Source: Liolophura sinensis
Taxonomy: Eukaryota > Mollusca > Polyplacophora > Chitonida > Chitonidae
Length of the DNA: 64,000 nucleotides
NCBI RefSeq assembly: GCF_032854445.1
Contig: NC_088297.1
Coordinates: 6,261,991-6,325,990, forward strand
Direction: 5' to 3'
Below, in pieces: positions 12,167 to 51,948 of the stretch. The notes under the pieces were generated by a model, which saw nothing but the letters and a program-made list of their open reading frames with translations, searched no databases and was not told where the DNA came from. How positions within the stretch are numbered: the stretch's first letter is position 1; each line of letters opens with the position of its first letter. The translations under genes and the position numbers were made by a program.

Positions 12167-15100
12167 CTGAAGAAAAGAATTCACAGAAATTTACATATCA
12201 CTGAAAAATCCTACTTTTTGGGGACCTGGTGAGTGGGATCAAAATCACCAGAGGTCGATTCCAAAAAACCATTTCTGACTAAAGTCCAAATATTTGAAAT
12301 AATATCTTAGAGCTTAGTCTTTCAGTTTTAGAAATCCAAATTTTGTCCACCTTATCAATATTATGTTAAGAACTTATTTTTCCAGTACCAAAAAGTAAGC
12401 ATTGTGAAGAGGTTATAATTTTCAATCAATCAGAAATGGCTTTGTGGAGTGAGCATCAGTCAGAAATGGCTTTGTGGAGTGAGCATCAGTCAGAAATGGC
12501 TTTGTGGAGTGAGCAGCAGTCAGAAATGGCATGCGGAGTGAGCAGCAGTCAAAAATGGCTTTGTGGAGTGAGCAGCAGTCAGAAATGGCTTTGTGGAGTG
12601 AGCAGCTGTCAGAAATGGCTTTGTGGAGTGAGTAGCAGTCAGAAATGGCATGCGGAGTGAGCAGCAGTCAGAAATGGCTTTGTGGAGTGAGCAGCAGTCA
12701 GAAATGGCTTTGTGGAGCGAGTAGCAGTCAGAAATGGCTTTGCAGAGTGAGCAGCAGTCAGAAATGGCTTTGTGGAGTGAGCAGCAGTCAGATATGGCTT
12801 TGTGGAGTGAGCAGCAGTCAGAAATGGCTTTGTGAAGTGAGCAGCCGTCGGAAATGGCTTTGTGGAGTGAGCAGCAGTCAGAAATGGCATTGTGAAGTGA
12901 GCAGCAGTCAGAAATGGCTTTGTGGAGTGAGCAGCAATAAGAAATGGCTTTGTGGAGTGAGCATCAGTCAGAAATGGCTTTGTGGAGTGAGCAGCAGTCA
13001 GAAATGGCTTTGTGGAGTGAGTAGCAGTCAGAAATGGCTTTGTGGAGTGAGCAGCAGTCAGAAATGGCTTTGTGGAGTGAGCAGAAGTCAGAAATGGCTT
13101 TGTGGAGTGAGCAGCAGTCAGAAATGGCTTTGTGGAGTGAGCAGCAGTCAGAAATGGCTTTGTGGAGTGAGTAGCAGTCAGAAATGGCTTTGTGAAGTGA
13201 GCAGCAGTCAGAAATGGCTTTGTGGAGTGAGCAGCAGTCAGAAATGGCTTTGTGGCGTTAGCAGCAGTCAGAAATGGCTTTGTGGAGTGAGCAGCTGTCA
13301 GAACATTTACTGCTGGCATACTCAGTGCAATTTATACACATTTTTCAATTTGAATTTGGAGACAAAACAACATTGGTTGGATTGGCCAGTTTCAGGGATT
13401 CACAAAAAGTAAACTTTTTTCAATCAGTGATTGGCTGAAAATGACCTGGCTGAAGTAAGCAGGCCGCAATGCCATTGGCTGTTGAAAGAGTAGGTTTCTG
13501 AAGACTTTCATGTGTATAGTACAGCAAGAGTGATTACGAAGCCTGTAGCGCAGTATCAATCTTTCTCACAGGAAGATATTGTATAAGTGAAATATTCCCG
13601 AGTACAGAATTAAACACCAATCTTCCGACTAAAAACCAGATCTTGAGCAGCAGGATATTTCTTCATCACAAGCTGGGATCTCCAAGTCTTGACAGGCTCT
13701 TTTAAAACAACCCCGAAGGAGTACAATTACAGAAATAACTGAAGTTGTTATAAACAACTTGAGTGAGTGCTTAGAGTTTAACGTCATACTTAACAGTTTT
13801 CAGTCATATGACGACAAAGCAGTTCTAAGAGTGTATGTAATATGCCTGCTTGTTGCAGGGTGGATTTCCACCGCTCTTTTATCTAATGCTGCTTCACTGA
13901 GACAAATTACGAAGGCAAGTAAGCCGCCCCGCCTGAGCCACTATACTGGTATGGGTCAACCGGTCGCTGCACTATCCCCTTAATGCTGAAGGCCAAGTGA
14001 GGAAGCTACAACTTCCTCTTTTAAGGTCATAGGTGTGACCTGATCCAGTAATTACCCTGGATCTACGACTCCCAAAGGGGACGCTCTAAGAACTGAGCCA
14101 TCGAGGCCGTTATAAGAACACCTTGAACCAGGAATTGAATGAACTAAATCACATACATAAAGGGAATATTTATCTTGTCTGAAGTCATAAAAGAGATTAA
14201 AATATTAACCAGAAAAACAACAAAACCAGAATTTTTGTCCTTACCCTTGATCAAATTTATGAAATATTCTCCTCATGACATCTTTCAAGGCCGCATCTTT
14301 CTTATCTTCAGCATCAGAGAGCTCCGCTAACAGCTCTTCAATCCACTTTGTGCGATATCTCTTCCAGCCTTTCTTCGATGACGTCAGTTCATATTCGTCC
14401 GGAACTTTCTTGGCCACATTTTCGGGGATTTCCATCTGATATCGATTCTTAGCACTTCCCCAGTAAGTAACTGACTGAATATAAGAAACATGTTGCAAAT
14501 CTTCACATCAGAAAACAGACTTCCCATACACCTTCAAAACTACAACAAGTTTCAGCTGTTGGTATTTCTGACTGGAGTTTGAACTGTTCAAAACTGCACA
14601 AACTGGAAAGATTCTTGAAATGCCGATTCTGCCTATTACTCAACCTTTTTGTGCATATTAAAGAGCAACTTTCAATGCCATTTATGGACCTTTGAGATTT
14701 GATTTCTCAGACAAAACTACATCTGTTGGGTTTGGCCAATTTCAGGGCATCACCAATAATTTTATTATGCAGTCAACAATTTATGCCCTCAGAAAGAGCA
14801 TGTATGAACATTTTACAAATATATGAAAAAGTTTGTCAAGTTTGTTTTAAACAGAAGTGATTTTGTTCTTTAGATATTTCAGTGAAGGATGGCCAGTCCT
14901 ACTTACAGCACATTTTGGCCACAGTAAAGCTAAGGAATTTATTAAATTAACTTAAGACCAACTCACTTTTCTCTCTCTCAACCTACCACACCTGACACGT
15001 ACTTCCTAATGGCGAGTCAAAAATGATAAACTGCTCAGAGAATCCTATTTTGACCTTTTGGATTCCATCTCTTGTCCTTATTTGTGAGAGGCTGGAGAGG

Positions 15101-18100
15101 ATTTCTATGACTAACATCACGTCCTCCTCTGTGAGAGACTGGAGAGGATTTCTATGACTAACATCACGTCCTCCTCTGTGAGAGACCGAAGAGGATTTCT
15201 ATGACTAACATCACGTCCTCCTCTGTGAGAGACTGAAGAGGATTTCTATGACTAACATCACGTCCTCCTCTGTGAGAGACTGAAGAGGATTTCTATGACT
15301 AACATCACGTCCTCCTCTGTGAGAGACTGAAGAGGATTTCTATGACTAACATCACAGGAATTCTGCTTACCTGGCAGCCTAGACGTTGTCGTTGTTGTGA
15401 GAGGTAAGCATCCAGTTCTTTCTCAGTTGCTTTGATTTTGCTCTTGGCACTGTCATACTCCTCATCAACACCTGATGTGACAATGAATCAATTATATGGT
15501 TGGGATTTAATGCCATAATTAACAATTTTCCACTTATACAACGGCAGTAAATTTTATACCTGTAGGTGGGGAGCACCAATCTTTGGCGACTTTTTCTACC
15601 GTCTAAACTTTGCAAATAAAACAATGTATGTATGTTTGAAGTTTAACGCCACAATTAACAATTTTTCAATCATATATCACATTATACTGACACTGGGCCA
15701 ACATTCCATGTTGCTAGAACATGAGTGGTGTTTGAAGAAACAATTATACTGAGCCGACTGCCACAAGAGTGTCATCGGCTTCTAACTGTCTCCAAAGGCC
15801 TAATGATTCATCTGATTTGAACTTCACAGGAAACCGGAATGGCTGGGGGAAATCACCAACCTTTCACATGTTACTCTGACAAGCAGGGCCCCCAGGAAAC
15901 CAAACAGAGCGTAGAGGAAACCTGTCAGAGGGAAAAAGAGGAAACCAAGCAGAATTTGGAGGACACCACGCAAAGTCAGGATAAAACCAGCAGAGCCTGG
16001 AGGAAACCAAGCAGAGTAAAGAGGACATGAAGCAGAGCCAAGAGGACACCAAGCAGAGTCAGGGGGAAACCAAGCAAAGCCAGGAGGACATACAGCGGAG
16101 GCAAGGCTACACCAGGCAGAGCCAGGAGGAAACAAAGTAGGGCCAGGACACCATTCAGAGCCAGGAGGACACCAATCCAGAGCCAGGAAGATACCAAGCA
16201 GAGCCTGGAGGAAACCAATGCCCTTCACCAAGTACAGGTACAATGTCCTACAAATATCCTGATGCTGGGCTGGGACAAAGGCTGCAAACAGTTGAATCTG
16301 AACACATGACCTCAACTGGCCAAGGTCAGAAATGAGGTATTTTACACAGCTCATCTATTTATTTCATTGGTGTTTTACATCATACTCAATATTTCACTTA
16401 CCGTACCCTAATTCCTCAACCCTTTTGCATATGAAGGAGCAACGTTCAGTGAAATTTTTGCAAATGTTTAATTTGATTTTGGAGACAAAACTACATTGGT
16501 TGGACTGGCCAGTGTCAGGGCATCACAAAAAGTATAATTTTATCAGTCAACAGAGAATAATGCGTGCAGAATATTGCTTCTTTGGGGCAGATAATTCAAT
16601 TCAATAAACACCTTGAACAAGTTGAAGAATCCCAGTATACAATGGCAGCTAGTATTAAGGCAGCAGGCAACCGCCCAGAGCAGGGGAAATCCATAACCAT
16701 CTGCAGGTTGCTGGCAGACCTTCCCACTTACATGCCAATAATCTGAAGAATCACAGTATACAATGGCAGCCAGTATATGGGCAGCAGGCAACCGCCCAGA
16801 GCAGGGGAAATCCACAACCATCTGCAGGTTGCTGGCAGACCTTCCCACTTACATGTCAAAAGTTTGAAGAATCACAGTATACAATGGCAGCTAGTATTAA
16901 GGCAGCAGGCAACCGCCCAGAGGAGGGGAAATCCACAACCATCTGCAGGTTGCTGGCAGACCTTCCCACTTACATGCCAATAGTTTAAAGAATCACAGTA
17001 TACAATGGCAGCCAGTATTAAGGTAGCGGGCAACCGCCCAGAGCAGGGGAAATCCATAACCATCTGCAGGTTGCTGCAGACCTTCTCACTTACATGCCAA
17101 TAGTTTAAAGAATCACAGTATACAATGGCAGCCAGTCTTAAGGTAGCGGGCAACCGCCCAGAGCAGGGGAAATCCATAACCATCTGCTGGTTGCTGGCAG
17201 ACCTTCCCACTAACATGGACGATTGGAGAACAAGGCCGAACTCAGAGCGACCGCATTGGCCAGACGCCACTGAGTCACAGTGCTGCTATCAAGCTAACCA
17301 TTTAGCCATATTTAAGATTTACCAAGTCTCACATAAAACAGAAGGTGGACTAGTTTTAGTTTGCCTCACCTGAGGTTGGAATGATGACACCATCTTTCTT
17401 TGCTTTGTTGTGATCAAACGCTTCCTGTGTGAATAAAAAGAAAAAAAAAACATAACCTAATACAGAGAATAAACGATGAACCAAAATTTAGTATAAATAC
17501 AACAAAACTCGAACAATGTGTTTATTAAAATTTATTTAATAGATGTTAGATTCGCTTAATATATTAATATTTTTTTATTAATATAAATTTAATCTTATTT
17601 AATACTGTCTATTACAAATTACAATTTTTCCTTCACTTTTGAAAAGAAAATTTTCTCTGTTTCTCAGCAAACATATTAAACTTCTCAGAGTCTTGACTAA
17701 CTGCATACTCTCTTATACAGATCAGCAAACAGTCCTGTAACCTACCGTCTAAACTTTGCACATAGAACAATGTATTTATGTTTGAAGTTTAACTCCATAA
17801 TTAACAATTTTTCAGTCATATATCACATTATACTGACACCGGGCCAACAAGAACTGTTTTCTTGCTCTAACCTCTCAAAGCTGAGTGCCAAACAATACTG
17901 CAGCAAGTACCGTTTTTAGATTTTTTTTGTACCACCCGACAAGTTTAATCCCGGGTCTCCAGACATCAAAGTGGACACCCTAACCAATAAAGCCACCCCA
18001 GCAGTCAGAAAAACACAACAATGCAATACACAGAACATCAGTGAACTCTGAATGGTTCTCTGGGATCATGACCTGCACTCAGCGGTTTTCCTACTCTCTG

Positions 18101-21100: not shown

Positions 21101-24100
21101 GCTTCATAAAACAGTGTATATTATTTCTCAACACTCCACAGTTCTCTCAGAACAATGGTTGCAGAGGTGGTTGAAAAGGTTGAAGATTTGGGTAGTTATT
21201 TAGTCAGCAGGGGAATAAATCAATTCCCTGTCCACAGTTTGGATTAAACTTCCAAGCTTGGCTTGGCTTAATGGTCATTTACATACATGCCATAATAAAT
21301 CTGTGCTCTAATTTAACTGAACCTGTTATAGTAATCCGTACAGGCATGAGGGAGTTTACTTATATTACCACTCACTTGCTCAAAAGCCTCTCCAAGTCTG
21401 GTAATTTTTTAAGTATTTCCGTTGCCTCAACAACCACTTCTTGCCGACCAATCAAATCTTCCACAGCGTCCAGTCGATCATTGATGGATTTGGGGTTACA
21501 CAGAGGAGCACACAACCACTGACGGAACAGCCTCTTCCCTGAAATTGTTAACACAAACAGCCATGAAAGGGTAGTTTAAATTGAACACAATTATTGCTCA
21601 TTGTTTGTTGCGGTACTCAAATATTTTCACAGTGAAGTTGATATCAGATTCCCCTATCAAATCAACTTAAAATCTGTTATTCTTTCTCAATTTTGAAAGC
21701 AAATCTGAAACACGACTTTCAATAATGGATATAAAGATGTTTCCTGTCTTCTCTAGCAAAAGATAAAGCCTTACCGAAAGGAGTAGAGCAGCGATCCAAC
21801 TGTTGACTCAGCGTGCCCTCTTGACCTCTTTCTGACCCCAGGTCAACGATGTCAAGGTTTGTCAAGGTCACTCCATCTATGACCTGTGAGACAGAATTAA
21901 CCGATTTACTTGATTGGTGTTTTATGCCGTACTCAAGATTATTTCACTTATATAACGTCGGCCAGCATCATGGTGTATGGAAGAAAACTGGGCAGAGGGG
22001 AAGTCCACAATTATCCACTGGTTGCTGCCAGACCTTCCCACGTTCGGCAGGAGAGGAAGCCAGCATGAGCTGGACTTAAACTCACAGTGACCATATTGGT
22101 GGAAGCTCCTGTGTCATCGCGCTATGATGGTGTGCTAAGTTCCTCCGCGACGGAGGCCCTCTGTCAGCTGGGATAATTTCATCAGTTATACACAGGAACA
22201 TACCAGAGCCTTTCCGCTTACATGTAGCAGGAAGAAGGTAACAAATTTATCATAGAGACGTGGGCTGATTTATGGACTGAAATTATTTTGATGACAGGAC
22301 AGGCTTTACGAATTACTGGTGGAGGACAAAGGATTAAACCATCTTCACCAGGTACCTGACAAACCTTCAGGGGCTGGGTGTTTAAACCAGTGATCTTCAC
22401 CAGGTACCTGACAAACCTTCAGGGGCTGGGTGTTTAAAAGTTAAGCCAGGCTTAAATCTTAATACCAGTTTTTGTTCTAATACAAAACTAACACAGGACT
22501 TAAATCCAGCTCAAAATTAATGCTTATCTGTTGAAACACTTTTGAACAACCTGGGCCCTGACTTAATTTTATTTTATTCATTTGATTGGTATTTTACGCC
22601 GTACTCAAGAATAATTCACTTATACGACGGCGGCCAGCATTAGGATGGGAGAAAAGCAGACTTATAGGGCCTGCTGATACAGCAAGTTTTTTCATGGTCA
22701 ATGATCTGGTAACCACAGCAAGTCAGCACATTAACCGTCCGATCCAGCAACCAGCCCTACCAGGTCACAACACTTACCATGTGCTGTCTGCCTTTGGTGA
22801 AATCAGCTACAGAGTCCTCCACCTTTTCTGCAGCATCCACGGGGATGTACTTCTCAAACTTCTTCATAGACAGCACTTCATCATCCATCAATGAATACTG
22901 CAAATACCTGCAAGAGTCACCCATACAAATCTGTTCTTGTACAGAAAGAAAACCCAAGGGCTTTACAAATCTGTACTGCTTTACAAATCTGTTCTTGTAA
23001 AGAACGAAAACCAAGAGCTTTACTAATCTGTTCTTGTACAGAACAAAACCCCAAGTGCTTTACAAATCCGTTCTTGTACAGAATGAAAACCCGAGGGCTT
23101 TACAAATCTGTTCTTGTACAGAACGAAAACCCGAGGGCTTTACAAATCTGTTCTTGTACAGAATGAAAACCCAAGAGCTTTACAAATCTGTACTGCTTTA
23201 CACATCTGTTCTTGTAAAGAACGAAAACCAAGTGCTTTACAAATCTGTTCTTGTACAGAACGAAAACCAGAGGGCTTTACAAATCTGTTCTTGTACAGAA
23301 CGAAAACCTGAGGGCTTTACAAATCTGTTCTTGTACAGAACAAAAACCCAAGGGCTTTACCGGAGTCCGCATTTTTCATTCAAAATCATGAGAGTAAGTA
23401 CTTTGTATGCGAGCTTAAACAAATCTATGCCAGGGATATAAATCCCCAACATGAAAAATCACGACGACATGTGCAAGAAAATTCCCAAAATAATGAAACA
23501 GGCCAACATGGGAAGTGTTAAGTCTGTTTAGCATACATACCAAGTGATGGCCCCCAGTGCTTTGAGAGCCAAGTCACACCCGTCCGCTGGCGACAATCCC
23601 AGAGAGTCAGCTGAAAAATTTGTATAAATATTCAGAAGCTGCTCCTGTAAAGACATTCAAACCTACTCCACTTAACACTTAATACAGCTAGAAGGTTAAG
23701 GGAGGGGAGGATGGGGGGGCCTGCGTCATAACACTTAATACAGCTAGAAGGTTAAGGGAGGGGAGGATAGGGGGGGGCCTGCGTCATAACACTTAATACA
23801 GCTAGAAGGTTAAGGGAGGGGAGGATGGGGGGGGTCTGCATCATTACACTTAATACAGCTAGAAGGTCAAGGGAGGGGAGGAGGGGGGGGGCTGCGTCAT
23901 AAGTTATCAGCTATTTCCTCTTGTCACATGGATCTTATTGCTTGAAGGTTGTGGGGGACCTGCAGACTACGCTATCTCTTCTCACACAGATCTTATTGTC
24001 TGAAGGTTGTGGGGGGGCCTGCGGCATAAGCTATCAGCTATTTCCTCTTGTCACATGGATCTTATTGCTTGAAGGTTGTGGGGGACCTGCAGACTACGCT

Positions 24101-27100: not shown

Positions 27101-30100
27101 ACTTGCCCATACTGGAGACATCTATACTTCGAAGACACAATCGGCAGTATGCCCGATTGACACTGCTGGTGTTGCGCACAAGCTAGTCCTTGAAATCTGG
27201 GAACTGCAGCCATTCATCACTAAAAAGACAGTTGCCTGGTGTCTCTAATGGTTTTTTCACGCACCAAATCACTCTCAATGACTACAGCGTAAGTTCTTAC
27301 CGCCAAACAAAAAAATGGCGATCTTAGTGTGTAGTGGCGCAAAACTATGACTGCGTACATACCATTGGCGGCCGCTTTAGGCGCATGCACGTTGCCAGTT
27401 GATTCACAGATTCTTACCACCGAATAACTTTATTGACGTGACACACACAAAATCAAGTGCTTTCAAAGACCTCCACATAAAAATGGTCAAATTCAAGGAC
27501 TTTCCAGTCCTTTAATTACCAAAATAAAATTCAAGTACTTTCAAGTTCTTCAAGGACGCGTGCGAACTCTGATAATATGCCCGGCCCAATGGCAGGGGCA
27601 TATAAAAATCCACGAAATTTACTCGTGTGCAGGTAACAACAAAAATTCACTCCATCCAAAGATTCAGCTTGTACAATTTTGGGCAACAAAAAATCTAGAA
27701 ACATATGAGGCGGGCACATGATTTCGCTTGTCTGCGGGCAATCTGGATCTTGTGAGATCCAATGACGTCTACATCAACCAATCAGGGTCCAAGAAATGTC
27801 ATGTGGGTTCATACAAATGGAAGCTGTGACTCAACTTTTTGGGGTCACATGACCTTGAACGTATCATGTGACAGTCTTTCAACACTGTAATCTTCAAAAA
27901 TAGAAAACAAATGTTGCTCATGGGCAGCTAACTGATACTCCGAAACATCTGCTACAACAAATATTGTCCATGTGGGCTTGAGTCTTCAGCCGTAAAAAAA
28001 CAACAACAGCTCCCCTCCACTTTTTCCCTTGCCTTCCCTCCTATTCCCCCCGCCCCCAGAACTCCATTTTAATGTGCAGAACACTCAAAATAACAGCATA
28101 TATAACCAGAAATGTTAAGGCCTTGGAGTCCACAGAATGCAGAGCTCAAATTTAACCGATTAAATGAAAATAGAACGAACTGTATTTCTTTCAGTCAGGT
28201 TAATATTTGTTGAATTCTACAAATGAAATGAGAAGTAACTTTTTTTCATTCTACAACCAATTATATAAAGGCTGTGAACAGAACAGAGATGACTAGCTGC
28301 CAGTGAGTAACTTACATGTACGGTGCCGATGGACGTATCCACAAAACAAACCCCAAATAAGCTCAGGCCATTCTGGGATGCCTCCTGGATAACACACGAA
28401 ACATCTCAATTAACTGTGTGTAAACGATGACTAAATTTCTTGCTTGTTAAACAAACAGCACATTTGTAGTGATAAGTTATACTGATATGCGCTTTTGTTC
28501 ACAACCTTGTCCCAAGCTTTTTCATTCACATGACAATGGTCAGTTTTTATGGCTGGAGGAAACTTACGTATGTACGTATGTTTGTGGTTAAACTTCGTCC
28601 GTAACAATTTTTCAGTCATACGACCACACGGACTCATTAGGTGTGTGTACATATATTGTCTCTCCTTGTGGCGGAGCGAGTCCATGCTACCGAAGTGCTG
28701 CCACCACTGCAGTATCATGCTGAAGACACCAGACATGACACCCCACCCAGTCACATTAGATGGCACTGGGCCAACAGTCCTGTTTCCTTGCTCTAACCTC
28801 TCTGAGTTGAGTGCTCAGTGCCAAGCGTGGAAGCAACAAGTGCCATTTTTAAAGCCTTTGGTATGACCCCACCCAGGATCGCCCGACTTCAAGGCAGATG
28901 CTCCAACCATTAGGCCACCAAAGTGGTCATTTACAAAACTCTAACATCATAAAATGACATCGTGAATAGCCAACTCTGTGTTTCGGTACAGATTGTGATC
29001 AACACACTTACCTTTTCAGCCACCGCCAGCAGGTAGTTGTTCTGAGCCTCACTTGTATCTCAGTGTTTCAGTACAGATTGTGATCAACACACTTACCTTT
29101 TCAGCCACCGCCAGCAGGTAGTTGTTCTGAGCCTCACTTGTATCTCAGTGTTTCGGTACAGTTTGTGATCAACACACTTACCTTTTCAGCCACTGCCAGC
29201 AGGTAGTTGTTCTGAGCCTCACTTGTATCTCAGTGTTTCAGTACAGATTGTGATCAACACACTTACCTTTTCAGCCACCGCCAGCAGGTAGTTGTTCTGA
29301 GCCTCACTTGTATCTCAGTGTTTCGGTACAGTTTGTGATCAACACACTTACCTTTTCAGCCACCGCCAGCAGGTAGTTGTTCTGAGCCTCACCTGTACCT
29401 CAGTGTTTCGGTACAGTTTGTGATCAACACACTTACCTTTTCAGCCACCGCCAGCAGGTAGTTGTTCTGAGCCTCACTTGTATCTCCGTCGATAAAGCTG
29501 AAAGTCTTTGTCCCCTTGGATGTGATCCTACAGATTTCACGCTTCACAACTTTGTCAAATTTGGTAGTTTTTACACCTGGAAGCAGACATAACAATACAA
29601 ATAAAGTTCAAGCCCCTTCATGCTGGCTCCTTCCTTGGTTGTAAGTGGGAAGGTCTGTCAGCAACCTGCGGATGATCGTGGGTTTTCCCTGTTAGTGCCA
29701 GGTTTCCTCCCACTATCACACTGGTCACCGCCCATAAAATGTTCAATGTTCAAAATGACTTTACGTTTGCATAAATTCATAATGCTAAGCTGTTATATGT
29801 GTCTAACAAAGTGCAATGTACATAAGAACATGCGAAATACAAAACTGAAATTCTAACTGTTTCTGATCATTGGAGTGAACACAATACAGATTCGTTATGA
29901 TCACCTTGAAGGTACTGGCACATTTCCTCAATGGAACAAGGTACACACGATTTGTAAAATAAAATGAAAAATAAGAGTAAAAAAAAGCCTCCAGCTCTAA
30001 ACTTACTAGTTTTACACCTTTCCGCCATCATTTCGGGCGTTTCTGTTTGTTCTATTCTGGCAACCTTGTAGCCTTTCTGTATGAGCGTGTCAGCATAGCG

Positions 30101-33100
30101 ACCATAAGCGATCTCCGGGAAGCCAGAGTGAGCATAGTCTCCCTAACACAGACAACAAATCAGCATAAAGTCTTATTATCTAAAACTCAGGACAAAATAA
30201 TTAATGTACTAATATGTGTATGTATACATAATATATGGATCATCTTCATAACTTACACGTACTTGTTACATAGCCAACAATAAACAAAGTCTCTGTGTGT
30301 CAGGCAATTTGCACAATGGGTTGGGGAAGACAACTCTCATTTTCTAAAGACTAGATAAATTTATTTAATACTGACAGTGTGATTAACATATAAGTTGTAG
30401 ACGGTACACTGATATTTGAATTCATCAGCCTACCTTGATGCAGGCCAAATTTTGAGACCGTTCATAGTTTACATGTATGGGTAGGTCACATGACAGACCC
30501 CCAAATCATAAAGCCGTCTTAGACTTTAGTCAGATTTTGTAATAAGTTAACTGTGGTGGAGGCAGATTTAAATAAAATCACTAATTTTCACTTTTATCAA
30601 GTCTAAGACAAATATATGTATTAAAATAAAAATGTATAAGGTAATTAGGTCACAATTTTAGCACAGTGAATTGTTTTGAAGCAACAACTAAATCTGTCTT
30701 AAGTCAAGGACAGCTTCATGATCAGGAGCCTGGATCTTTCATAAGCCTTGAGGTACATTCATTGCTTGTCCTTATATAAATTGTAGATGACACTAAGGGA
30801 CTGTCTCCACAAATCATGTGCCTTCAAATAGCACAAAAATTTTGTCTGCGATATTGCAAACAATTGGTGTTGGGACGATAATTTGAAACAGTCGCAGACA
30901 CAGTTATTTGAAACAGGACTTTAGTTTTTACAACAGAGCAGGCTGAAAGCAGTCCTCAGACACAGTTGGGGGAAACGAAAGCAGACAATGGCAATTACGC
31001 CCTTGAACAGGAAGATTGCATGCTTTGAGAGAGAGGGGGAGGGAGAGCTCGACCATCGCTTAACCTTAATATGTCAACTTAGACATTCAGAGGCATTTCC
31101 ATCATGTGGCTAAACACCAGACTTTCTTGCTCCAGTCTGATACTGCAACGGGACATTCTGTGACTGAAAACTTACCGTAACTATATCACGGGCTCATTGC
31201 GCTCTGCACAGGTTATTCTCCATGCCATTATGTTAATTCGTCAGAATCACGCACACATGTAACGACAACCCTGTATGCTGTTGATTTACACAACTTAAAT
31301 GCGCAAGTTCCTTTCTGAAACTCATGTCTATGCCTATAATATTTTGTTTGAAGTCACTGTTTCAGACACAACGTATATGAAAGTAGGAACAAGGTTGAAA
31401 ATAAAGTTCATCGAGAAAGGGAAAGATGTTGCGGACGTGCAACTACAACAAATTTGTTGCTGAATGTTAGACTTTGTGACCTCATATATTGTGCTATGAT
31501 TTTTTTGCACTCAAAAGACAAAACAGACGAGAATTTAGATTAACGAAGAATTGGGTTTTATCGACGTGTTACAGGGTTTTGTTACTTTCCTGAACGAACC
31601 ATACAGTGTCATTATTCCCGGAATATGGGTATTATTTTATAATAAATGTCTGTTGATTAAAGATTTTACACAAAAAAATCCCATGCCCTCCAGTGGATAC
31701 GAGACCCTTCCACAGCCCCAGGGTGAACCCACGAGACCCTTCCACAGCCCCAGGGTGAACCCCCTTCCTCCTCTCAGAAACCTACAGGGATCAGGCTGAA
31801 GTAATTTAAATACTTATTAGCAGCAAAAACACACAACACACAAAAATTGTTCTATGATTCTCAAATTCAGTCAATCCTGTGAAGACTTGAAACATATCCC
31901 TATATGTATTACGAAATTATGATTTTAATACTGTGTATCGTTAATCCTGTATATTTTATTTATTTCTTAATCTTGGCAGTTTTAAAGTATTCACCAATAA
32001 ATGCATGTACATCACCATAAAAACAGTCACACTAGTTTTTGCCCATTTTTATTATTTTCTCGGACAAATCATAGCTATTTAAAATGTAACCCATTTCAAA
32101 TACTTTGCTGAAATTATTTGTCAAATGTAAAGGACTAATATTTAGATTCGAATCCCGGGGATGGTGAATTCTCCATGCCAAAAAAAATGGACTTTTTCTC
32201 CTCGAGAAAGTGTGGACTGTTTACCTTTTAGGTATTCTCACTTATGAGGGAAAATATACTCGTTTTTATTCCACGCCCACATGGCGCCTGTCCCCTTCCT
32301 TTTCTCCCCTGTACTCCTAGTCAACACACGCATATTGTGAGAACAAATATGTTAGCTCAAACAACAGGTGTAAGTTTGAATCCTATATGTCAATCGTAGA
32401 ATACAAGAGGGAAGTACACGATTTATGGGGGACAGTCCCTAACAGACACATAAAAGGACAAAATCTGAAAGTCTAAAATCATTGTGAACAATTTCATGAC
32501 CATTTCGACTTACCTTCATGTAGATCAGACCTAATTCATTGACAGCGATAGCCGCATCCATGTGGAACAACTCATAAAATTTTCCCATCTGAAATAAACA
32601 GAACATACGGTAAATGACCTTAAGTTTCGCACCTGAGAAACTGTCGGCAAGATGACAAAAGAGTGATTAGCCCCTCGCCCGTTTCGTTACCCTGCATGGC
32701 GCTTAGCAGCTCTGGGTGCAAATCCTGGCCACGTCGGTCAAGTCACTGACAGTGAGGTGTGCAGGTCTCCCGACTAGTAGGTATACATGGACATCTCTCA
32801 GGTGACGTCTACTACAAACCTTGAAATTCCAAACACTGTCTCAAAGTATGACCACGCCACACAGGGAATGTACATGCACAATATGCACTGCAGATGAACC
32901 GACTGTTTGGGATAGGCCTCTGTGGAAGTCCTCTCACACCGTTATCTGGTGAACAATTATCTACTGAGAGCCCTCATTATGCAACCAATGTGTGGGGTTT
33001 CCACAAACCATGACGATTTACTGTTAGACCTTTTTGGTACCACTTTGTGCGAGTCTGGCATATCAGGAGACAGGATTTGCTTGGGGGATCACATCAGGAG

Positions 33101-48592: not shown

Positions 48593-49284
48593 ACTTTATC
48601 TCGACAACAAGCTGTTACGTCTGAGGGCATCAAGTTCTCTCATCATGTATTTATACTGATATTATATGGTGTACACAGGTCTACCCTAGGGTGCAGTATT
48701 GATTCCCATTCTTTTGTTATTTTTTAATGACATTATTGACATATCCAATATTCTGAAATTCGTACATAACGGACGACACCATGCAGTGCTTGTTCGTCCG
48801 TTCCATCGTACACTTATCAAAGGAGAGCTTCACGGCATTTTATAATGGCTTTGTGTCAATCGTCATTCTCTTGTTCCCGCGAAGAAGACGTTATCAACGC
48901 TTTGCGCTTCCTTAGTCTTCTCTACCTGGAAATACAGGTGTAATGAAACTACGCCAACACACTTTGGGGAAGCACATACAGTGAAAACAAATAATTTGTT
49001 AATTTTAACAAAAAGTCTGTTGGCTGAGTGATGTATTATGATGTTATTGTAACATAATACTATGTCATATTCAACATAATATCCTGTTAGTCTAATGGAA
49101 TCTTTAGTTCTATATAATTAAATAATAATTTTTTTTGAGTGAAACAAACTTATCTGCAGCCACTTGTTCAACTTCAAAATCGTGTGATGTTTGCATATAA
49201 TATCCTTTTTACGGACAGACTAGAACACAACCCCCCAAAACTTTAGGTGTCAAATAAAGATCCCAATTCCTTGACTAGATCAAC

Positions 49285-51605
49285 TCTGGCTCCTCTCGTC
49301 TTCCCGTGCTTGTCTTCTGATTACTGACCCGCGAAACCTCTTCTCGTCTTCCCGTGCTTGTCTTGTGATTACTGACCCGCGGAACTTCTTCTCGTCTTCC
49401 CGTGCTTGTCTTGTGATTACTGACCCGCGGAACCTCTTCTCGTCTTCACGTGCTTGTCTTGTGATGACTGACCCGCGGAACTTCTTCTCGTCTTCCCGTG
49501 CTTGTCTTGTGATGACTGACCCGCGGAACCTCTTCTCGTCTTCCCGTGTTTGCCTTGTGATTACTGACCCGCGGAACCTCTTCTCGTCTTCCCGTGCTTG
49601 CCTTGTGATTACTGACCCGCGGAACTTCTTCTGGTCTTCCCGTGCTTGCCTTGTGATTACTGACACGCGGAACCTCTTCTCGTCTTCCCGTGCTTGTCTT
49701 GTGATTACTGACCCGCGGAACCTCTTCTCGTCTTCCAGTGTTTGCCTTCTGATTACTGACCCGCGGAACTTCTTCTCGTCTTCCCGTGTTTGCCTTCTGA
49801 TTACTGACCCGCGGAACCTCTTCTCGTCTTCCCGTGTTTACCTTGTGATTACTGACACGCGGAACTTCTTCTCGTCTTCCCGTGCTTGTCTTGTGATTAC
49901 TGACCCGCGGAACCTCTTCTCGTCTTCCAGTGTTTGCGTTGTGATTACTGACCCGCGGAACTTCTTCTCGTCTTCCCGTGCTTGTCTTGTGATTACTGAC
50001 ACGCGGAACCTCTTCTTGTCTTCCCGTGCTTGTCTTGTGATTACTGACCCGCGGAACCTCTTCTCGTCTTCCAGTGTTTGCCTTGTGATTACTGACCCGC
50101 GGAACCTCCTAACGTCTTCCCGTGTTTGCCTTGTGATTTCTGACCCGCGGAACCTCTTCTCGTCTTCCCGTGTTTGCCTTGTGATTACTCACACGCGAAA
50201 CCTCCTCTCGTCTTCCCGTGCTTGTCTTGTGATTACTGACCCGCGGAACTTCTCCTTTTCTCCCTGTGCTTGCCTTGTGATTACTGACACGCGTAATTTC
50301 TCGTTGTCTCCCCGTACTTGTCTTGTGATTTCTGACCCGCGGAACCTCTTCTCGTCTTCCCGTGTTTGCCTTGTGATTACTCACGCGCGAAACCTCCTCT
50401 CGTCTTCCCGTGTTTGCCTTGTGAATACTGACCCGCGGAACCTCTTCTCGCCTTCCTGTGTTTGCCTTGTGATTAATGACCCGCGGAACTTCTCCTTTTC
50501 TCCCTGTGCTTGTCTTGCGATTACTGACCCGCGTAACTTTTTCTCGTCTTCACTTGCTTGTCTTGCGATTACTGACCCACGGAACTTCTCCTTTTCTCCC
50601 TGTGCTTGCCTTGTGATTACTGACACGCGTAATTTCTCGTTGTCTCCCCGTACTTGTCTTGTGATTTCTGACCCGCGTAACTTTTTCTCGTCTTCACTTG
50701 CTTGTCTTGCGATTACTGACCCACGGAACTTCTCGTTGTCTCCCCGTACTTGTCTTGTGATTTCTGACCCGCGGAACCTCTTCTCGTCTTCCCGTGTTTG
50801 CCTTGCGATTACTGACCCGCGGAACCTCCTAACGTCTTCCAGTGTTTGCCTTGTGATTACTAACCCGCGGAACCTCTTCTCGTCTTCCCGTGCTTGTCTT
50901 GTGATTACTGACCCGCGGAACTTCTCCTTTTCTCCCTGTGCTTGTCTTGCGATTACTGACCCGCGTAACTTTTTCTCGTCTTCACTTGCTTGTCTTGCGA
51001 TTACTGACCCACGGAACTTCTCGTTGTCTCCCCGTACTTGTCTTGTGATTTCTGACCCGCGGAACCTCTTCTCGTCTTCCCGTGTTTGCCTTGCGATTAC
51101 TGACCCGCGGAACCTCTTCTCGTCTTCCCGTGTTTGTCTTGTGATTACTGACCCGCGGAACCTCTTCTCGTCTTCCCGTGCTTGCCTTGTGATTACTGAC
51201 CCGCGGAACCTCCTCTCGTCTTCCCGTGCTTGCCTTGTGATTACTGACCCGCGGAACTTCTTCTCGTCTTCCCGTGTTTGCCTTGTGATTACTGACCCGC
51301 GGAACTTCTTCTCGTCTTCCCGTGTTTGCCTTGTGATTACTGACCCGCGGAACCTCTTCTCGTCTTCCCGTGCTTGTCTTGTGATTACTGACCCGCGGAA
51401 CCTCCTATCCTCTCCCCGTGCTTTTCTTGCGATTACTGAACCGCGGAACTTCTTCTCGTCTTCCCGTGCTTGTCTTGTGATTACTGACACGCGGAACCTC
51501 TTCTCGTCTCCCCGTGCTTGTCTTGTGATTACTGACCCGCGGAACCTCTTCTCATCTTCCCGTGCTTGTCTTGCGATTACAGACCCGCGTAATTTTTTCT
51601 TGTCT
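49285..51605. repeat. 48-bp minisatellite, main block, about 48 copies
   Basis: The unit is cttgtgattactgacccgcg followed by gaacctcttctcgtcttccc and gtgcttgt. In the second half, blocks of variant units recur (markers acccgcgtaactttttctcg at 50527, 50671 and 50959, spaced 144 and 288 bp, i.e. 3 and 6 units), showing higher-order structure. Because the unit is 16 codons and lacks stops, one plus frame runs for 766 codons and a minus frame for 420. I see no start context, splice support or conserved partner, so I do not call a gene. Confidence 0.96.
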
Positions 51606-51619
51606 TCCCTTGCTTGTCT

Positions 51620-51948
51620 CGGGACCGGTAGATCCAGGATCAATCCTTGGTCGAGTCACACCTAAGACTTTAAAAGAGGAAGTTGTAACTTCCTCGCTTG
51701 GCGTTCAGCATGAAGGGGATAGTGCAACGACTGGTTGACCCGTATCAGTATAATGGCTCGGGCGGGGCGACTTACTTGCCTTCGGTAAGTCGTCTCAATG
51801 ATGCAGCACTAAATAAAAGAGCGGTGGAAATCCGTCCTGCAACAAAGGAGGCACATTACACGTACATGCACCCTAATGATTCCTTCGTCGTCATATGACT
51901 GAAAAATTGTTGAGTACGACGTTAAACCCTAAGCACTCACTCACTCAC
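51620..51948 (+). repeat. SINE-B inserted inside the 48-bp minisatellite
   Basis: Forward orientation from cgggaccggtagatccagga to gtacgacgttaaaccctaag and a cactcactcactc tail. It lacks about 35 bases of the tRNA-like head. The array word tcccttgcttgtct (51606-51619) is repeated as tcccttgcctgtct (51949-51962), a 14-bp duplication with one difference. Confidence 0.92.

Follow-up and report, generated by a model that had tools for sequence, protein, structure and literature searches.

It has long been asked whether the splicing machinery, faced with equal sites, makes its choice across the exon or across the intron; built minigenes and surveys of alternative sites have addressed the question. 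A gene of the chiton Liolophura sinensis poses it in natural form. In the stretch of DNA analysed (the window, 64,000 nt, C3:6261991-6325990), one exon of the mismatch-repair gene MSH6 ends in a tandem array that presents its donor junction six times. This raises the questions of which donor is read and of how such an array comes to lie at this junction.

The gene runs on the minus strand. Translated, 29434-29580 gives a 43-residue match to human MSH6 (PDB, E value 9.9e-11), and tblastn, guided by a human MSH6 sequence, places MSH6 exons between 34.4 and 6.3 kb of the window. The gene model joins 31 hand-chosen exon cores by simple splice-site scoring, the N-terminal cores, up to 44.3 kb, having been added by eye. 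Most links have good splice sites and the gene is otherwise open; two links farther upstream have poor scores (PWWP2 to K-rich and KRKR to QASS), exon 1 is unplaced and one exon may be missing. An earlier reading of the window from its letters (the sequence-only reading) had named the array exon MSH6 exon 13. The gene is confirmed by the human match; the number is not secured, the exon being the 11th of the 31 chosen cores. It and its neighbours are placed as follows.

30007..30142, minus strand: preceding MSH6 exon
29437..29576, minus strand: MSH6 exon with the repeated 3' end, 140 nt, entry phase 1, exit phase 0, from the human MSH6 match and the splice model
28316..28384, minus strand: following MSH6 exon, starting at 28384 in phase, its acceptor common to all donors

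The introns flanking the array exon measure 430 nt before it and 1,052 nt after it in the splice model. A separate short repeat, GGTGTAAAA(A)CTA, is common to the 3' end of the preceding exon (30007-30018) and the start of the array exon (29565-29577). Its copies sit near both ends of the 430-nt intron and are possibly the trace of an older duplication, or chance.

The repeat of the exon-intron junction, first noticed at 28981-29486, is real and extends over 28974-29486, where TRF reports a period of 85, 6.0 copies and 96% matches. The sequence AAGGTAAGT occurs six times within 28900-29620, on the minus strand and at an exact spacing of 85 nt.

28974..29486, minus strand: MSH6 junction array, six 85-bp units, each with exon 3' end, donor and intron start
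29402-29486, minus strand: array copy 1
29317-29401, minus strand: array copy 2
29232-29316, minus strand: array copy 3
29147-29231, minus strand: array copy 4
29062-29146, minus strand: array copy 5
28974-29061, minus strand: array copy 6

Each 85-bp unit holds the last 47-50 nt of the exon, the donor AAG|GTAAGT and 35-38 nt of intron; the exon end is thus repeated as had been read, with 47-50 in place of the exact figure of 48 coding bases. The recurring exon part is 50 nt long, and its outermost three (GAG) also stand at the intron end of the array. Copy 1 is the only one fused to the exon, again as read. Copies 2-6 repeat the 50-nt exon 3' end with two changes in copy 2 and one in copy 4, and all six 9-nt donors are identical. 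Six of the 88 aligned columns vary, none of them inside the 9-nt donors, with 3 of 50 among exon-derived columns versus 3 of 38 among intron-derived ones. The near identity of the copies is likewise confirmed at 0-4 pairwise differences per 85 nt; unit 2 is the most divergent and unit 6 retains the unique intron edge. A 170-bp alternating pattern had also been proposed. Units 3 and 5 are indeed identical, with unit 4 three differences from either, but the pairs 1-3, 2-4 and 4-6 differ by 2-3 bases and the pattern is weak.

The triplet GAG is common to the exon, to the joint between units and to the unique intron beyond copy 6, which suggests a duplication through short homology. A tandem duplication that chanced to span the donor junction would probably have started between GAG triplets lying 50 nt into the exon and about 35 nt into the intron, and slippage or unequal exchange would then have expanded the array to six units. 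We infer this route, and the near neutrality of the product, from the structure of the units.

In the assembly searched (609,464,459 bases in 632 contigs), an 801-base query, 28900-29700, finds the array locus as one match. No dispersed copies of the 85-bp unit were found beyond this locus by the search, which skips very common words. The other 42 matches listed, on many contigs and at 75-93% identity, touch only about 29604-29693, a dispersed repeat that we take to be perhaps a SINE. An assembly error, or a wrong copy number, comes to mind since tandem repeats are prone to mis-assembly and one amphioxus array of this type was aberrantly assembled in the genome draft (PMC3087553). The published assembly, however, was built from HiFi reads with a mean of 8,347 bp at 14x, with haplotypic duplicates purged (PMC11068029). 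Such reads far exceed the 513-bp array, and the units differ from one another at six columns, which makes this explanation highly improbable.

The donors that compete for the acceptor at 28384 are the following.

29428..29439, minus strand: donor 1, AAG|GTAAGT, the only one joined to the full exon, first intron base 29436
29343..29354, minus strand: donor 2, first intron base 29351
29258..29269, minus strand: donor 3, first intron base 29266
29173..29184, minus strand: donor 4, first intron base 29181; 255 extra nt, frame kept, stop still met
29088..29099, minus strand: donor 5, first intron base 29096
29003..29014, minus strand: donor 6, closest to the next exon, first intron base 29011
29387..29395, minus strand: extra strong donor CAG|GTGAGG in copy 2, first intron base 29392

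The sequence-only reading was right that the machinery meets six identical donors, and partly right about the cost of a distal choice: the same TGA, 15 codons beyond the true exon end, is met from all five distal GTAAGT donors, although the frame shift that it expected does not occur at donor 4. On a simple matrix of our own, CAG|GTGAGG at 29392 scores 11.1 versus 12.6 for AAG|GTAAGT, and CAA|GTGAGG within the exon (29477) scores 8.0; use of either also ends in a stop.

The explanation favoured here, at a probability of roughly 0.7, is that the array is a tolerated minisatellite of the kind called mirages in amphioxus and that its exon-side donor wins through recognition of the exon as a unit. 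Recognition of the 140-nt exon would run from the exon's own acceptor to the closest donor, so that 29436 is used, and the five downstream donors would sit in the intron and be spliced out unused. Alternatively, rare transcripts from distal donors may arise, meet the stop after 15 codons and probably be degraded. Equal donors 85 nt apart, between introns of these lengths, lead one to expect under an exon-centred rule that donor 1 dominates.

Experiments with built genes point the same way. When two identical CAG/guaagu donors competed at a distance of 52 nt in minigenes whose introns were 365 nt long, only the upstream one was used, and among human events with near-equal donors 60% prefer the upstream one, as do events with long flanking introns (PMC9225289, accessible text). 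These minigenes resemble the MSH6 array in having identical strong donors at one exon and long flanking introns; they differ in being built, with two donors 52 nt apart, whereas the array is natural, with six donors 85 nt apart. When all human competing-donor events in the same source are pooled, about 60% prefer the downstream donor, which would favour 29011 and counts against the favoured explanation. This bears on a proximity rule centred on the intron, by which 29011, the donor nearest the next exon, would be used, MSH6 would be truncated and the allele would yield little of it. The preference over all events speaks for such a rule; near-equal donors and long introns shift the preference upstream, exclusively so in the minigenes (PMC9225289), and the remainder of the MSH6 gene looks intact. 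The proximity rule is therefore very unlikely to govern this exon. Elements between competing donors can also shift the choice, according to reporter evidence (PMC1877881, as far as its accessible text goes).

The copies themselves could be put to use in two ways. In the first, a share of transcripts would take a distal donor, gain the TGA and be destroyed, and copy number would set MSH6 output. Six equal donors, with an early stop certain from each distal GTAAGT site, give this idea its appeal, and noise or dosage control had been proposed from the sequence. It finds no support in the extra copies, which carry no sign of selection and whose differences are too few to decide on it, nor in the fact that unrelated genes carry the same kind of structure; the exclusive use of the upstream donor in minigenes with identical donors and long introns (PMC9225289) also argues against it. 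Dosage tuning is thus unlikely, if less so than the proximity rule.

In the second, the inner copies would serve as in-frame mini-exons, from GCTCAG|AAC to the donor, each adding 10 residues, as a nascent gain of introns. Every 85-bp unit does contain a 30-nt in-frame stretch between GCTCAG and the donor, and an intron-gain model has been proposed for mirages (PMC3087553). Against this, no good acceptor lies within the MSH6 array by the simple score: the best acceptor-like site reaches 0.1 versus 4.2 for the exon's own acceptor on the same type of matrix, GCTCAG|AAC falls below the listing cut-off of -1.5, and the implied introns would be only 55 nt. Recursive splicing, or mini-exons through inner acceptors, was rejected on these weak scores, and we regard this use of the copies as very improbable.

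The favoured explanation places the array in a known class, to which the sequence-only reading gave no name. Amphioxus mirages are minisatellites that span exon-intron boundaries (PMC3087553) and, according to the accessible parts of the two papers that describe them, leave regular splicing undisturbed (PMC3087553; PMC3902484). They occur in Adh3, in the globins BflGb6 and BflGb9 and in TnC, with similar imperfect repeats in PGBD5 (PMC3087553, PMC3902484). As far as its sequence allows a comparison, the MSH6 array has the structure of a mirage: tandem repeats cross the exon-intron boundary, splice signals stand in all six units, and unit size is comparable (10-72 bp in Adh3 mirages, 150-160 bp in those of the globins; PMC3087553, PMC3902484). 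In mirages the inner units are near-identical and more alike than those at the edge; in the MSH6 array units 3 and 5 are identical, but unit 2 is the most divergent of all. The host is a mollusc and not a cephalochordate, and the genes are MSH6 and others. Normal splicing and length instability are both reported for mirages (PMC3087553, PMC3902484), whereas the MSH6 array is known from the sequence of one assembly.

Two further systems are looser relatives. Human internal tandem repeats at exon-intron boundaries are, like the MSH6 array, minisatellites that overlap the boundary; those described in the accessible text of PMC2812944 lie in recent segmental duplications and give rise to new introns or to alternative transcripts, unlike the extra MSH6 copies, which appear silent in an existing intron at one array locus. 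Donors of the GYNGYN type (PMC1779574) are competing donors at one exon, as in the MSH6 array. At 85 nt, and with their context copied, the MSH6 donors fall outside the spacing that defines such tandem donors. GYNGYN donors overlap within a few nucleotides. For molluscs, our literature search found no report of junction-spanning arrays or mirages, though such reports may still exist. Abalone TSSK1 has a minisatellite in its intron 3, described without stated junction spanning in the accessible text (PMC6905558), and tandem repeats are reported in the first intron of an earthworm metallothionein (PMC12783039).

The chiton genome holds other arrays of this kind. Around other MutS-family genes, 140 kb were examined in four pieces; arrays of period at least 10 make up 22.8, 23.3, 1.8 and 63.4% of these pieces and 18.6% of the window. 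Of the 12 MSH2-5 exons tested, a single one, in MSH3, carries an array that spans its junction; there a 78-bp unit is repeated 63.6 times at C8:41748745-41753702 across an acceptor junction. A neighbouring exon matches Msh3 best (E 6.4e-19), and the exon beginning at 41753667 matches MutS_V (1.1e-8). The units contain both the acceptor TTTTAAT.TAG|G and a diverged version of that exon's start, and the acceptor core is found by exact pattern at 57 places, including the real site and a smaller adjacent array, all scoring 2.5. The exon-centred rule predicts that the last acceptor would be used here.

Further features of this MSH3 region (C8:41747747-41753702) are a 4.3-unit array of the same 78-bp unit at 41747747-41748081 and a second exon copy at 41748046, in which no frame stays open. 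Units of 78 bp preserve the frame of the exon, and for 859 codons ahead of the real exon that frame is open; the remainder of the array has 32 stops in it. In MSH2, one of the 12 tested exons has a non-spanning array from 13 nt inside the intron and one has a single weak edge flag. The names MSH2, MSH4 and MSH5 are provisional assignments made with guide sequences. The MSH2 introns at C1:94020001-94036430 are filled by long arrays, a 43-bp unit x184 and then a 70-bp-based array; the 43-bp array starts 13 nt into the intron that follows the ATP-binding-loop exon.

Arrays also lie close to splice sites elsewhere in the window. Within an MSH6 intron, a 40-bp array at 22924-23360 stops 17 nt short of an acceptor (first exon base 22907) and contains acceptor-like AACAG sites, and a 47-bp array at 15083-15355 starts 15 nt past an MSH6 donor (first intron base 15370), which it excludes. 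Both were rejected as splice-site copies, since neither includes the site. On the plus strand, a 48-bp array of 48.5 copies at 49275-51662 has an open frame of 796 codons.

Genes outside the MutS family carry junction arrays as well. A Myosin_head profile search gave 81 matches at 30 loci, one of which (L037, C12) has an array across the donor CATCAG|GTATG, with eight exact copies mostly 66 nt apart; at three other loci arrays lie near an exon, crossing not being demonstrated. A search for three strong donors at gaps of 20-50 nt gave 1,399 matches versus 395 for the reversed motif. At gaps of 51-80 nt the donor motif gave 1,966 matches on 33,494 single sites (5.9%). Its controls gave fewer: the reversed motif 305 on 24,251 (1.3%), one shuffled motif 868 on 23,312 (3.7%) and that shuffled motif reversed 863 on 26,757 (3.2%). 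Such matches cluster in arrays and their counts are dominated by long ones, so arrays were counted by eye among the first 100 places listed in each search: 15 versus 5 reversed at 20-50 nt (C1 up to 12.15 Mb), and, at 51-80 nt, 13 versus 1 reversed (up to 6.95 Mb) and 12 versus 6 shuffled (up to 5.65 Mb). Acceptor-like trios at gaps of 30-60 nt number 415 on 41,825 sites (1.0%) versus 98 on 25,555 for the reversed pattern (0.4%). Donor trios are likely enriched, on few arrays and to a degree that depends on the control; proof that arrays are preferentially seeded at donors was not reached.

The 5' side of all 15 arrays from the first 100 listed matches at 20-50 nt was inspected. Four of them have their first donor at the end of an open exon that shows homology:

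ankyrin, Pfam 5.4e-8
SNF2 domain, 8.4e-6; best solved relative a 'helicase-like protein', 1.7e-16; the gene is presumably Mot1/BTAF1-like
Fe-hydrogenase C-terminal domain, 1.8e-12
2-oxoglutarate dehydrogenase, solved structure 3.5e-20; Pfam E1_dh 0.02, under its cut-off

For the other 11 of the 15, nine of them judged from open frames only, no coding exon was demonstrated (L050 is almost all array across the inspected piece and L060 has no Pfam hit), which counts against the favoured explanation. In the myosin gene and in these four, as in MSH6, the array lies on the intron side of the exon. In the same five donor arrays outside MSH6, read-through meets a stop within 1-49 nt, nothing out of the ordinary for intron sequence. 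MSH3, the myosin gene and the four genes found by pattern are evidence that this kind of junction array recurs across the chiton genome, and its presence at junctions of unrelated genes fits a tolerated by-product.

A bolder proposal is that hundreds to thousands of junctions in this genome hold donors or acceptors in tandem, as a genome-wide class of arrays that arose independently of amphioxus mirages, is seeded at splice junctions preferentially over other places by a process coupled to transcription or splicing, and persists through exon definition, only the exon-side copy being read. This is tentative, and we hold it to be doubtful. One result counts against the favoured explanation of a tolerated array. 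Extra copies, at least two within 1.5 kb, occur at 1 of 60 modelled MSH6 junctions versus 592 of 4,000 random positions in the gene span; the binomial P for this deficit is about 8e-4, with positions that in reality are not independent. Junctions are kept mostly array-free, as exon constraint would also predict. Arrays over MSH6 junctions are thus mostly avoided and may not be harmless.

The overall interpretation of the sequence-only reading is partly supported, and its view that the array is of value as a natural test of donor choice stands. As far as the literature was searched, the kind is already known from amphioxus, and what is new is the animal group, a mollusc, and a mismatch-repair gene as host; the recurrence within the chiton genome is the interesting part of the finding. 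Six MSH6 donors and about 64 MSH3 acceptor units form a natural graded series in conserved genes, and RNA-seq from digestive gland, foot, gill, gonad and heart of the animal is published (PMC11068029). Should splicing always take the exon-side copy, the series would lend strong in vivo support to exon-centred choice. If the favoured explanation is true, mirages would extend from lancelets to a mollusc, and the splice junctions of mismatch-repair genes could bear repeats without obvious harm. If the genome-wide class were also true, the chiton genome would amount to a large natural experiment in splice-site competition.
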